A stretch of DNA of 41,979 bases from Armatimonadota bacterium (GTDB lineage Bacteria; Armatimonadota; Zipacnadia; Zipacnadales; UBA11051): positions 1 to 41,979 of the forward strand of contig JABLXH010000046.1 in NCBI GenBank assembly GCA_013178155.1, in the 5' to 3' direction. The notes below the pieces were generated by a model. That model was not told the DNA's origin. It made no database searches and worked only from the letters and a program-made list of their open reading frames with translations. The position numbers were made by a program, and so were the translations under genes. Below, piece after piece: positions 26,096 to 30,082 of this stretch. The stretch's first letter is position 1, and each line of letters starts with the position of its first letter.

Positions 26096-26863
26096 CTACC
26101 ACGCCGTCCAGCCGCCATCCACCGACAACGTGGTGCCGGTGACCATCCCCGCTTGATCGCTGGCCAGGAAGACCGCGGCTGCGGCCACGTCCTCCGGCTG
26201 CGCGAGCTTGCCGCCCGGTATCTGCTTCAGGACATACTCGCGGAACTCCGGGTTCTCCAGGCGTTTGCGGGTCAGGTTAGTCTCAATGAAGGTCGGCGCA
26301 ATGGCGTTGACCGTGACACCGTGTCGGGCCCACTCCACCGCCAGGGTCCGCACCAGGTTGATGATCGCGCCCTTGCTGGAGCAGTATACGGGCTGGCCGG
26401 GGACGCCCACGAGACCGGATTGGCTGGAAATGAAGATGACCCGGCCCCAGCCCTGGGCGATCATGTGGTGCGCGGCGGCCTGGGCCACGAAGAACCCGCC
26501 CTTCACGTTGACCGCGAAGTGCTCGTCCCACGTCTCAGGCGTGGCCTCCAGGCCGGAGACCGGGCGGTTGATGCCGGCGTTGTTGACCACGATGTCAAGG
26601 CGCCCACACTCCGCCATGACGCGCGCCACGGCGGCGGAGATTTGCTGCTGGTCGGTGATGTCCAGGTCAACGGCCAGCACCTCGGCGCCCTGCGCAGCGA
26701 CCAGAGAGGCGGTCTGCTGGGTGCTTACGCCGGGCTTGTCGGAGACAGCCACGCGGGCGCCCCGCCCACCGAGAGCGACGCTGATGGCCTGCCCCAGGCC
26801 GGTGGCAGCGCCAGTTACCAGTGCCACACGTCCATCCAGTCGGAACCAGTCCTTGGGCTGCAT
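26096..26863 (-). CDS. Short-chain dehydrogenase/reductase (classical SDR)
   Basis: NAD(P)-dependent oxidoreductase, 255 residues, classical SDR layout: VTGAATGLG cofactor loop (residues 16-24), NNAG at 94-97, catalytic Ser147 in ISSQSGL, Tyr160 and Lys164 in YCSSKGA, and a C-terminus ending LSVDGGWTAW. Such proteins near carbohydrate genes are often gluconate- or sugar-5-dehydrogenases, or 3-oxoacyl reductase-like. The start at ATG 26863 has GGGAGTGAG upstream; longer reading to 26968 crosses the divergent iron-operon promoter region. It is the first gene of a two-gene operon with the propeller protein. Confidence 0.92.
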   Translation of the reverse strand: MQPKDWFRLDGRVALVTGAATGLGQAISVALGGRGARVAVSDKPGVSTQQTASLVAAQGAEVLAVDLDITDQQQISAAVARVMAECGRLDIVVNNAGINRPVSGLEATPETWDEHFAVNVKGGFFVAQAAAHHMIAQGWGRVIFISSQSGLVGVPGQPVYCSSKGAIINLVRTLAVEWARHGVTVNAIAPTFIETNLTRKRLENPEFREYVLKQIPGGKLAQPEDVAAAAVFLASDQAGMVTGTTLSVDGGWTAW

Positions 26864-26961: not shown

Positions 26962-26990
26962 TTGACACGGGCGAGAGGGACCCCTATAAT
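26962..26990 (+). promoter_or_regulatory. Consensus sigma-70 promoter of the iron operon
   Basis: TTGACA (26962-26967), exactly 17 bases, TATAAT (26985-26990): a full-consensus promoter, striking in GC-rich DNA. Transcription should begin near 26997, a few bases before the palindrome at 27000. An in-frame ATG at 26989 overlaps the -10 and so cannot be used. Confidence 0.9.
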
Positions 26991-26999
26991 GGCGGCGGA

Positions 27000-27021
27000 A
27001 AAGTTAAGCAGGCCTAACTTT
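27000..27021 (+). promoter_or_regulatory. Palindromic operator for the DtxR/MntR-type regulator
   Basis: The sequence AAGTTAAGCAGGCCTAACTT (27001-27020) has six-base perfect arms AAGTTA/TAACTT with G and C continuing inward, and one further A/T pair at 27000/27021. It resembles DtxR/IdeR boxes built on TTAGG and CCTAA half-sites. It covers about +4 to +25 of the predicted transcript. The natural reading is that the downstream regulator binds it to shut off its own operon when metal is plentiful. Confidence 0.7.
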
Positions 27022-27042: not shown

Positions 27043-27990
27043 ATGCCCAAGACGCCCATCTCAGCGAAGATGGAGGACTACCTCGAGGCCATTCTTCAAC
27101 TCGAGCGAGAGCAGGGGGCCGTGCGAGTCACCGACATCGCTGACCGCCTGCAGGTCACAACCCCCAGTGTGACCGGCGCCCTGAAGACTCTCAAAGCCCG
27201 GGACCTGGTGAAGCATGAGTCTTACGGGGACGTGGTGCTGACCCCCAGGGGGCGAGAGTTGGCCCGCCAGGTCCATGACCGACATCAGGCCATCGTGGAT
27301 TTCCTGAGCAGCGTTCTGCACCTGGCACCGGAGGAGGCCGAGAGCGACGCGTGTGGGTTGGAGCACACCCTGGGTTCGGCGGCTCAGGACCGGCTGGTGT
27401 GCCTGACCCAGTTCCTGCACGACCACCCGGGCCTGTACCAGGAATGGCTTGAGCATCTCGAGCGCCATGTGGCAGGGGAGACAACCAGCCTTCCGTCCGG
27501 TGCACAGCTAGCCGATACAGAGCCTGCAGCAACCACCCTGGATCGCGTGCCACCAGGGATGACGGTGCGTATACGCAAGGTCGGGGGCTCGGGAGCGATT
27601 CGCCGCCGGCTCCTGGACATGGGGCTTCGCACCGGGGTGGAGCTGCGAGTGGCTCGCATCGCTCCCCTGGGTGACCCGGTAGAGATTCACCTGATGGACT
27701 ACCATCTGTCACTGCGCCGGATGGAGGCCGCAGCGATCGAGGTGGAAGTGGTGGCGATGCCCTTGAGCATGGCGCGTGCGGGCCAGCGGGTGGTCATCAC
27801 GGAGCAGCGCGGCCGGGGTCTGATGGGTCAGTTACGGCTCGAGGGGCTGGTCCCCGGCGCCGTTGTTGACGTGGTGCAGGAACTCGGGGGCATCGGCGGC
27901 ATGGTGGTCCGCAGCAATGGCCGAGAGCTGCGCCTCGGGCGCGGGCAGGCACAGCGGCTAACGGTGCGACTGGTCGCGCAGCACGCATGA
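27043..27990 (+). CDS. DtxR/MntR-type metalloregulator fused to two FeoA domains
   Basis: Predicted metal-sensing repressor of the Feo operon, 315 residues. Order: winged helix-turn-helix (about 1-70), dimerisation and metal-binding domain (about 71-140), linker, FeoA domain 1 (about 163-237, with RRRLLDMGL and APLGDPVEIH), FeoA domain 2 (about 240-311, with LRLEGLVPGAVVDV). Ligand pattern: Asp12 and Glu15 (MEDYLEA) as in MntR, His81, then Cys104, Glu107 and His108 (CGLEH) where DtxR has Cys-x-x-Glu-His. It therefore mixes MntR-like and DtxR-like ligands; context favours iron. There is no separate feoA gene, so the fused domains may also serve FeoB. Start at ATG 27043 is just after the operator; its site (GGAG, 13 bases away) is weak. 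FeoB follows by 16 bases. Confidence 0.9.
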   Translation: MPKTPISAKMEDYLEAILQLEREQGAVRVTDIADRLQVTTPSVTGALKTLKARDLVKHESYGDVVLTPRGRELARQVHDRHQAIVDFLSSVLHLAPEEAESDACGLEHTLGSAAQDRLVCLTQFLHDHPGLYQEWLEHLERHVAGETTSLPSGAQLADTEPAATTLDRVPPGMTVRIRKVGGSGAIRRRLLDMGLRTGVELRVARIAPLGDPVEIHLMDYHLSLRRMEAAAIEVEVVAMPLSMARAGQRVVITEQRGRGLMGQLRLEGLVPGAVVDVVQELGGIGGMVVRSNGRELRLGRGQAQRLTVRLVAQHA

Positions 27991-28006
27991 TCTGGCAGGG
28001 CAGTTG

Positions 28007-30082
28007 ATGGCTTCTCCCACCACCCGCCAACTGGTCGTGGCCCTCGCGGGTAACCCCAACTCAGGCAAGACCACACTGTTTAACGCCCTTACCGGCTCGC
28101 GCCAGCACGTGGGCAACTACCCCGGCGTCACCGTGGAGAAGAAGGAGGGCCACCGCGACTTCGGCTCCTACCACATTCGCTTTGTGGACCTGCCGGGCAC
28201 CTACAGCCTGACTGCTTACTCCCTGGAGGAACTCGTCGCCCGCGACTTCATTCTGGTGGACAAGCCTGACGTTGTGGTGGACGTGGTGGATGCCTCCAAC
28301 CTGGAGCGCAACCTGTACCTGGCCAGCATGTTCCTAGAACTGGGCGTACCGCTGGTCCTGGCCGTGAACATGATGGATGTGGCCGAGGCACGGGGACAGG
28401 TGATTGACCTGGCGCTGTTGGCAGAGCTTCTGGGGGTCCGAGCGGTGCCAGTGATCGCCAGCCGGGGGCAGGGCGTGGAGGAGTTGTTGCAGGCGGTTGT
28501 CGAGGCGGCGAGAGAAGGCAATCCGCGGGCGGTACAGGTTCAGTACGGGGGGGAGATCGAAAGCCACCTGGCCCAGTTGACGGAGGCCGTCGAGGCGGAG
28601 GGCGCCCTGGCGCATCTGCCGTCACGGTGGGTGGCGATAAAGCTGCTGGAGAACGACGAGCAGGTTCGCCGGCAGGTGCAGCAGTGCGATAGCAGCGGAC
28701 GCCTCCTGGAAGCGGCACGTGCGGCCCGCAGCCACTTGCAGAGCATCACCGGGGACGACCCTGAAGTCATCATGGCGGAGCGCCGTTACGGATTTGTGAA
28801 TGGTGCCTGCCGCGAGGTCATCACCCTGGCGCAGCAGAGCCGCGTGGACTGGTCCGACAAGGCCGATAGCTTCCTGACCAACCGTGTTCTGGGCCTGCCA
28901 ATCTTCTTCATGTTCATGTGGCTCATGTTTGAGGGCGTCTTCCGCCTGGGGGCGCCGCCAATGGCCTGGCTGGAGAGCTTCTTCGCCTGGTTGCAGGCTA
29001 CGGCCCGGGACAGCCTGCCGCCAGGAGAGCTGCAGTCACTGATTGCCGACGGGGTCATCGGCGGTGTCGGCGGGGTGCTGGTGTTCGTGCCCAACATCAT
29101 GCTGCTGTTTCTGGCTATCTCGCTACTCGAAGACAGTGGCTACATGGCCCGGGCCGCCTTTGTGGTGGATCGCGTGATGCACCAGGTCGGGCTCCACGGC
29201 AAGAGCTTCATTGCGATGCTCCTGGGCTTTGGCTGCAGCGTGCCGGCGATCATGGCCACGCGCTCGCTGGAAAGCCGCCGCGACCGCATCATCACGATCC
29301 TGATCGTGCCTTTGATGAGCTGTGGGGCGCGGCTGCCTGTCTACATCCTCCTGGTGGGAGCCTTTTTCCCGGCGGACGCGGCGGGCAAGGTGATCTTCTC
29401 GGTCTACGTGCTGGGTGTCTTACTGGCGCTGACCATGGCCAAGGTCTTCCGGCGCTTCCTGCTCCCGGGGCCGCCGGAGCCCTTCGTGATGGAGTTGCCG
29501 CCGTACCGCATGCCGACGCTCAGGGGCACGCTTATCCACATGGTCGAGCGCGGCTGGCTTTATGTGCAGAAGGCCGGAACCACCATTCTGGCCATGTCAG
29601 TTCTGATGTGGTTCCTGCTCACCTACCCCAAGGTCGCACCCGAGCCGAACCTGGCGGAGGCCGGAGCGGCTCGCCGGGCCATCGAGCACAGCTACGCCGG
29701 TCGCGTCGGCGCGGCCATCGAGCCGGTGCTGCGGCCGCTGGGGTTCGACGACCGCATCGCCATCGCGCTGTTCTCTGGACTCGCTGCCAAGGAGATCGTC
29801 GTTTCCACACTGGGCACCGTCTTCAGCCTCGAGGGCGCTGAGGACGACACACACCAGCTTCGGCAGGCGTTGGCTAGCGACCCCCAGCTCTCGCCCCTGA
29901 AGGCCTATGCGTTGATGCTCTTCGTGCTGATCTACGTGCCCTGCGTGGCGACCATCGCCGTGATCTACCGGGAGACCTGCTCGTGGCGATGGGCGATGTT
30001 TGCGGTGGGGTACACCACCGCCCTGGCCTGGATCGTGGCCTTCGTTGTGTACCAGGGCGGCCGGCTGGTCGGACTGGGTTAG
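28007..30082 (+). CDS. feoB: Ferrous iron transporter FeoB
   Basis: Imports Fe(II) across the inner membrane, with an N-terminal GTPase. The 691 residues contain G1 AGNPNSGKTT (14-23), G2 VGNYPGVTVEKKEG, G3 DLPGTYSL and G4 NMMD, then the linker helices and about eight to ten membrane segments. Gate motifs are visible, including LLGFGCSVPAIMATRSLE and LIVPLMSCGARLPVY. A full-length single chain, not split. ATG 28007 is preferred over the overlapping TTG 28004. It is co-transcribed with the regulator before it and the cysteine-rich protein after it, 12 bases on. Confidence 0.98.
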   Translation: MASPTTRQLVVALAGNPNSGKTTLFNALTGSRQHVGNYPGVTVEKKEGHRDFGSYHIRFVDLPGTYSLTAYSLEELVARDFILVDKPDVVVDVVDASNLERNLYLASMFLELGVPLVLAVNMMDVAEARGQVIDLALLAELLGVRAVPVIASRGQGVEELLQAVVEAAREGNPRAVQVQYGGEIESHLAQLTEAVEAEGALAHLPSRWVAIKLLENDEQVRRQVQQCDSSGRLLEAARAARSHLQSITGDDPEVIMAERRYGFVNGACREVITLAQQSRVDWSDKADSFLTNRVLGLPIFFMFMWLMFEGVFRLGAPPMAWLESFFAWLQATARDSLPPGELQSLIADGVIGGVGGVLVFVPNIMLLFLAISLLEDSGYMARAAFVVDRVMHQVGLHGKSFIAMLLGFGCSVPAIMATRSLESRRDRIITILIVPLMSCGARLPVYILLVGAFFPADAAGKVIFSVYVLGVLLALTMAKVFRRFLLPGPPEPFVMELPPYRMPTLRGTLIHMVERGWLYVQKAGTTILAMSVLMWFLLTYPKVAPEPNLAEAGAARRAIEHSYAGRVGAAIEPVLRPLGFDDRIAIALFSGLAAKEIVVSTLGTVFSLEGAEDDTHQLRQALASDPQLSPLKAYALMLFVLIYVPCVATIAVIYRETCSWRWAMFAVGYTTALAWIVAFVVYQGGRLVGLG

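Follow-up and report, generated by a model that had tools for sequence, protein, structure and literature searches.

Gene organization of the feo locus

The window (the whole 41,979-nt stretch of Armatimonadota DNA that was analyzed) carries a feo operon in which one open reading frame, the dtxR-feoA1-feoA2 fusion gene, is followed by feoB and by the gene of a small FeoB-associated protein (Table 1). The ATG of feoB begins 16 nt past the stop codon of the fusion gene. Both PF01325 and PF02742 scored over their cut-offs in the fusion protein, so the domain pair of DtxR/MntR-type regulators is present, and FeoA was matched in two stretches (E 1.4e-28 for the whole protein), each of which lies above the Pfam FeoA cut-off of 23 bits. 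A preliminary description of the locus had proposed that a single ORF joins a DtxR/MntR-type repressor to two C-terminal FeoA domains; this observation is confirmed, being borne out by Pfam and by the predicted fold.

Table 1. Positions of the genes, domains and regulatory elements of the feo operon in the window
Feature	Position	Strand	Evidence or remark
Sigma-70 promoter (TTGACA, 17-bp spacer, TATAAT)	26962..26990	+	12/12 consensus bases
Palindrome AAAGTTAAGCAGGCCTAACTTT, candidate repressor operator	27000..27021		At about the transcription start
dtxR-feoA1-feoA2 fusion gene	27043..27990	+	315 aa; ORF list and Pfam
Winged-helix DNA-binding domain, aa 7-62	27061..27228	+	Pfam PF01325 (Fe_dep_repress), E 2.2e-13
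Metal-binding and dimerization domain, aa 67-129	27241..27429	+	Pfam PF02742 (Fe_dep_repr_C), E 1e-13
Flexible linker, aa 130-164	27430..27534	+	pLDDT <50 at aa 153-159
FeoA1 domain, aa 165-235, APLGDP type	27535..27747	+	74.1 bits
FeoA2 domain, aa 239-309	27757..27969	+	37.3 bits
Met239 codon, start codon of relatives' free feoA2 (MPLSM...), possible internal start	27757..27759	+	
feoB	28007..30082	+	TIGR00437, E 2.4e-190; alternative TTG start at 28004
Small FeoB-associated Cys-rich protein, 66 aa	30095..30295	+	PF12669, E 1.3e-4, 22.6 bits, below the cut-off of 27

Promoter and candidate operator

The sigma-70 promoter was the sole promoter-like site between positions 26800 and 30500, a region in which shuffled sequences gave a mean of 0.4. 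The palindrome, with the core AGTTA-N8-TAACT, lies just downstream of this promoter and is unique in the window. With up to three mismatches allowed, AGTTAGN6CTAACT turned up in front of the orthologous gene at 28 of 30 loci in the phylum set, where dinucleotide shuffles predict 1.2, and in 51 of 80 upstream regions across phyla, where 6.3 were expected, although both counts overstate the evidence because related loci are not independent. The spacing between the palindrome and TTGAC formed several discrete classes, in which the palindrome either overlaps the -10 box or lies past it; a stretch of DNA that was merely inherited would not behave in this way.

Perfect copies of AGTTA-N8-TAACT occur twice in the 5.5-Mb genome, once in the feo operon and once at C183:1014. 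The second copy was rejected as a regulon member; its core is AT-rich and unrelated, its neighbors are a PNPOx-like gene on one side and an Rrf2-like gene (for an Rrf2-family regulator) on the other, and it is probably the site of another regulator. No wider regulon was evident among the one-mismatch sites examined, which fell in or beside unrelated genes.

Judging from the DNA sequence, the fusion protein is very probably an autorepressor of its own feo operon that would act at this candidate operator. The part of the preliminary description that concerned metal sensing and transcription is supported by the promoter, by the conserved candidate operator and by the conserved metal ligands described below.

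Predicted structure of the fusion protein

The AlphaFold model of the full fusion protein had a mean pLDDT of 89.9, with values mostly between 85 and 96 over both FeoA domains. The repressor part of the model (aa 7-147) superposed on Bacillus subtilis MntR (2f5c; Z 17.1, 2.8 A, 140 residues), FeoA1 (aa 164-237) on the FeoA protein 7r7b (Z 14.2, rmsd 1.2 A), and the two FeoA domains together (aa 164-315) on 2k5i, a tandem FeoA of solved structure (Z 13.5, 5.7 A). FeoA2 modelled alone (with free FeoA2 relatives) superposed on the FeoA protein 3e19 (Z 14.6, rmsd 1.1 A, 74 residues). The preliminary description had named a second domain without the FeoA fold as an observation that would speak against it; the agreement with a solved FeoA at Z 14.6, together with the profile score of 37.3 bits, rules out that the second domain is something other than FeoA.

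The same FeoA2 model also resembled the third domains of the DtxR-type repressors 5zr6 and 4o6j (Z about 13.7), so that the fold cannot separate FeoA from the SH3-like domain of a repressor. Sequence comparison is the better discriminator. A search of the PDB with the FeoA1 sequence gave 11 matches, all of them FeoA proteins and none a DtxR third domain, and the FeoA2 profile had FeoA as its best match (77 bits), with a weak match of 24 bits to the third domain of IdeR. The identification of FeoA1 as a plain DtxR third domain is accordingly not favored by the PDB sequence matches, the fold alone being indecisive.

Metal site and metal identity

The ligand set D12, E15, H81, C104, E107 and H108 was invariant in 16 aligned sequences. 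In an alignment to MntR (6kta), D12, E15, H81, E107 and H108 are as in MntR, whereas C104 takes the place of MntR Glu99 and corresponds to Cys102 of DtxR/IdeR. The predicted metal site is a mixed MntR/DtxR ligand set. The ligands D19, C108, E111 and H112 of PgMntR from Porphyromonas gingivalis constitute the same mixed set (PMC4805248). PgMntR bound both Mn and Fe; its binding to DNA was tighter with Mn2+, and it was released by Fe2+ at high concentration (PMC4805248).

The system may serve manganese and not iron. Its fusion protein would then be a repressor of the MntR-FeoA kind controlling a FeoB that transports Mn, the situation described for the PG1044/FB2 operon of P. gingivalis. The D/C/E/H ligand set and the composition match those of PgMntR, whose operon partner FB2 carries Mn (PMC4805248), and the closest solved structure to the DtxR part is MntR. 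In addition, no Nramp/MntH was found in the genome from which the window comes (G000), and the two Fur-family regulators of that genome could take care of iron. However, the Cys at the position of MntR Glu99 is the residue of the iron regulators DtxR and IdeR, which makes the site mixed; PgMntR itself binds both metals; and membership in the FeoB family does not settle the metal. We regard a manganese system as possible rather than probable.

FeoA domains as possible repressor parts or possible partners of FeoB

A whole-genome profile search of G000 (5.53 Mb, 211 contigs, 95.6% complete) gave exactly two FeoA matches, both within the ORF at 27043-27990. Fe_dep_repr_C and FeoB_C gave one match each in this genome, the fusion gene and the feoB gene downstream of it, respectively. 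No free feoA was found outside the fusion gene across the assembly (95.6% complete, 211 contigs), which rules out a free feoA elsewhere within the assembly and extends the earlier statement that none is present from the window to the whole assembly. A free FeoA was likewise absent from the second genome with a fused gene (G001), and thus from both of the only fused cases found. A free FeoA2 gene is present in most relatives, so the lack of a free FeoA goes with the fusion and not with the wider family.

In the phylum, G042, G043, G044, G279, G280, G282, G289 and G290 each have just one FeoA, which is bound to the repressor and has feoB adjacent. Regulation of FeoB at the membrane, as the preliminary description proposed, is plausible because several near-complete genomes have no FeoA besides the repressor-bound one, which feoB adjoins. 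In the natural FeoA-FeoB fusion of Bacteroides fragilis, FeoA stabilizes GTP-bound FeoB (PMC8980893). Whether the FeoA domains of the fusion protein functionally engage FeoB seems to us an evenly balanced question.

C-terminal SH3- or FeoA-like domains that have no transport role are common in DtxR-type repressors. Both FeoA domains may have a structural role within the repressor, comparable to that of the SH3-like third domain in DtxR, and make no contact with FeoB, which would work without FeoA; the fusion protein would then serve solely as a metal-dependent repressor. The FeoA fold is the same as that of the third domain of DtxR-type repressors, and the DtxR-FeoA1 fusion is ancient and widespread, with FeoA1 in the same register after the repressor. 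Furthermore, PgMntR without its last FeoA domain loses the binding of both Mn and DNA (PMC4805248), which suggests that FeoA domains may belong to the repressor. On the other hand, the PDB matches of FeoA1 are free FeoA proteins and include no DtxR third domain. The DtxR part itself corresponds to a two-domain MntR, complete with a C-terminal helix of its own, and is set off from FeoA1 by a flexible linker. Most relatives have FeoA2 as a free protein beside feoB, so the repressor cannot require it there as a covalently attached part. We lean against a purely structural role.

Origin of the fusion gene

The usual order in relatives is dtxR-feoA1, a separate feoA2 and then feoB. The dtxR-feoA1 gene of these relatives ends about 245 aa in, and feoA2 either follows within a few bases or overlaps it in another frame. 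This two-gene layout was seen across the best 80 loci from all GTDB species, in many phyla, some of these loci not being readable as far as feoB. In some of the 80 loci feoB directly follows dtxR-feoA1, and the triple fusion dtxR-feoA1-feoA2 was found in none of them. The nearest named relatives are metagenome assemblies of Candidatus Zipacnadia, WS1 and Armatimonadota.

Within a set of 291 genomes from the phylum, the fused gene was confined to G000 and G001. G286 and G287 also looked fused at first, but both have a separate feoA2. G001 is an independent genome from another genus of the same family, and its gene has the same one-ORF layout with 48% identity. The two were sisters in the tree with support of 100/99, both on long branches between which some attraction is possible. 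The other members of the family (one genus, five genomes) retain two genes.

Profiles built from the FeoA1 and the free FeoA2 sequences of relatives assigned the two domains to separate sources. The first FeoA of the window scored 96.5 bits against the FeoA1 profile versus 36.8 bits against the FeoA2 profile, and the second scored 39.5 bits against the free-FeoA2 profile versus 11.5 bits against the FeoA1 profile; the FeoA domains of G001 sorted in the same manner. The junction in the window, at which ...EVEVVA is followed by MPLSMARAG..., is gap-free, and the FeoA2 part begins exactly at the MPLSM start of free feoA2. The junction in G001 is worded differently (IVEQPLSQ), and the start codon is gone. 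FeoA2 is the more divergent of the two domains, and its counterpart in G001 is degraded near the conserved LGRGMA stretch, a point that counts against the overall proposal set out below. The fusion gene almost certainly represents the in-frame joining of dtxR-feoA1 with the next gene of the operon, feoA2, and a single fusion event in the family of G000 and G001 is the simplest account.

The position of the junction bears on a further reading, in which translation also starts internally at Met239 and yields a separate FeoA2, leaving the cell with a free FeoA. The Met239 codon coincides exactly with the start codon of free feoA2 in relatives, and purine-rich GAGGTGGAAGTGGTGGCG lies upstream of it. 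In G001, however, that start codon is absent, and FeoA2 is covalently fused there unless a downstream GTG is used. Internal initiation seems unlikely to us. An assembly or base-calling error that joined truly separate genes is highly improbable and was rejected, although the assembly is incomplete and in 211 contigs and the genes are separate and in different frames in most relatives. G001 shows this fusion too, at 48% identity and with a junction that reads differently, and its grouping with G000 is supported in the tree. In addition, the gap-free junction of the window places the start of FeoA2 exactly at its conserved beginning.

Variation among relatives and a second twin-FeoA group

The linker between the DtxR part and FeoA1 carries the motif CPRGG..W..HL..RW...CxxxCxxC in all 14 unfused sequences of alignment A1 (e.g., L008, L013 and L023) and in neither of the two fused ones. 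Looser, related Cys patterns were seen in other phyla. In the unfused relatives the motif could bind Zn or an Fe-S cluster.

Gene content at the locus also varies within the phylum. In G009 (L034), G014 (L032) and G045 (L033), the DtxR part is encoded by a short gene of its own that lacks FeoA1; in G045, a separate feoA and feoB lie right behind this short dtxR gene. G034 (L011), G036 (L009) and G042 (L028) encode a repressor-FeoA1 protein with an Arg/Gly-rich tail and have feoB directly downstream, and no feoA2 was found between the two genes in these three genomes.

A distinct group of twin-FeoA proteins is represented by L035:976-1989 (G025), by L138-L142 and by further genomes of the phylum. 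Its members have an N-terminal hydrophobic segment, a DtxR-like region, a metal-binding domain with a DPHGDPIP motif, and two FeoA domains; the winged helix was not recognized by Pfam in G025. The next gene was feoB in all six loci examined. From its sequence, the N-terminal segment looks like a transmembrane helix, and a membrane-anchored protein of this kind would be a better match than the window protein for a sensor that acts at FeoB. The FeoB proteins beside the regulators of L138-L142 begin with CESCALRxxLVxMG, a possible metal-binding N-terminus.

Proposed regulation and its implications

Taken as a whole, we somewhat favor the proposal that the product of this two-gene fusion is a metal-responsive autorepressor that carries the only FeoA domains of the organism and has FeoB as its partner. 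The analysis establishes the domain content, the fusion origin, the conservation of ligands and operator, and the lack of any other FeoA; the identity of the metal, the repression and the contact with FeoB are inferred, as follows. Fe2+ (or Mn2+) would fill the D12/H81/C104/E107/H108 site, and the dimer would then bind the palindrome (27000-27021) and block the promoter (26962-26990). When the metal is scarce, the repressor would leave the DNA and the feo operon would be expressed. The DNA-free protein may then provide FeoB with a FeoA partner by way of its two SH3-like domains.

Transport-coupled sequestration operates in other bacterial regulators. A corresponding two-state switch, in which the metal-loaded repressor sits on DNA, the protein at the membrane is a FeoA subunit required by FeoB, and active FeoB titrates the repressor off the promoter, is speculative here, and we doubt it. 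If it were true, transport activity would feed back on transcription, and the repressor would be the sole FeoA in the wider dtxR-feoA1 family.

The function of FeoA is still debated, and in the dtxR-feoA family FeoA is tied to the repressor of the operon. The two fused genomes aside, at least eight relatives have a repressor-bound FeoA as their sole FeoA beside feoB, which offers a clean test of its role. If the repressor-bound FeoA is needed for transport by FeoB, the repressor is also a transporter subunit; if it is not needed, either FeoB requires no FeoA there or the primary role of the FeoA-like domains is in regulation. The DtxR-FeoA proteins were taken out by hand from a published count of FeoA fusions (PMC8980893), so that this group was overlooked.

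Comparison with known systems

DtxR-FeoA fusions adjoining feoB occur in many phyla. PgMntR (PG1044) of P. gingivalis, a DtxR protein with twin FeoA domains, was characterized in 2016, and the study listed 41 homologues, spread over 13 genera and three phyla (PMC4805248). It shares with the window protein a DtxR/MntR repressor with two C-terminal FeoA domains, the D/C/E/H primary metal site and a feoB gene in the operon. However, the published residue list of PgMntR, with D132 and H134 and the first-FeoA ligands H166, D169 and E170, suggests a three-domain DtxR type with an extra FeoA, whereas the window protein consists of a two-domain MntR-type repressor, then a FeoA1 that resembles free FeoA, then FeoA2. 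Set apart by this residue list, the two proteins probably have the same domain set by separate derivation.

The two-gene form found in Zipacnadia, Deltaproteobacteria, Planctomycetota, Nitrospirota and others has the same repressor, FeoA1, FeoA2, gene order and operator palindrome, but its feoA2 is separate and, within the class, its linker has the conserved Cys motif that the fused proteins lack. B. subtilis and B. halodurans MntR share the fold of aa 5-147 (Z 17.1) and five of the six metal ligands with the window protein; they have no FeoA domains and have Glu99 instead of Cys.

Among proteins without a repressor part, the tandem FeoA of Clostridium thermocellum (PDB 2k5i) likewise has two FeoA domains head to tail. 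FeoA-FeoA proteins, which account for 791 of 28,444 FeoA entries (approximately 3%; PMC8980893), have two FeoA domains like the window protein but also lack a repressor. In B. fragilis FeoAB, FeoA is again covalently joined to another Feo component, although the partner is the transporter and not a regulator (PMC8980893). A study of Feo evolution mentioned "FeoA with an additional domain" (PMC8749426). The layout itself is already known, and the architecture is less novel than the preliminary description assumed; what is specific to the window is the origin of the fusion.
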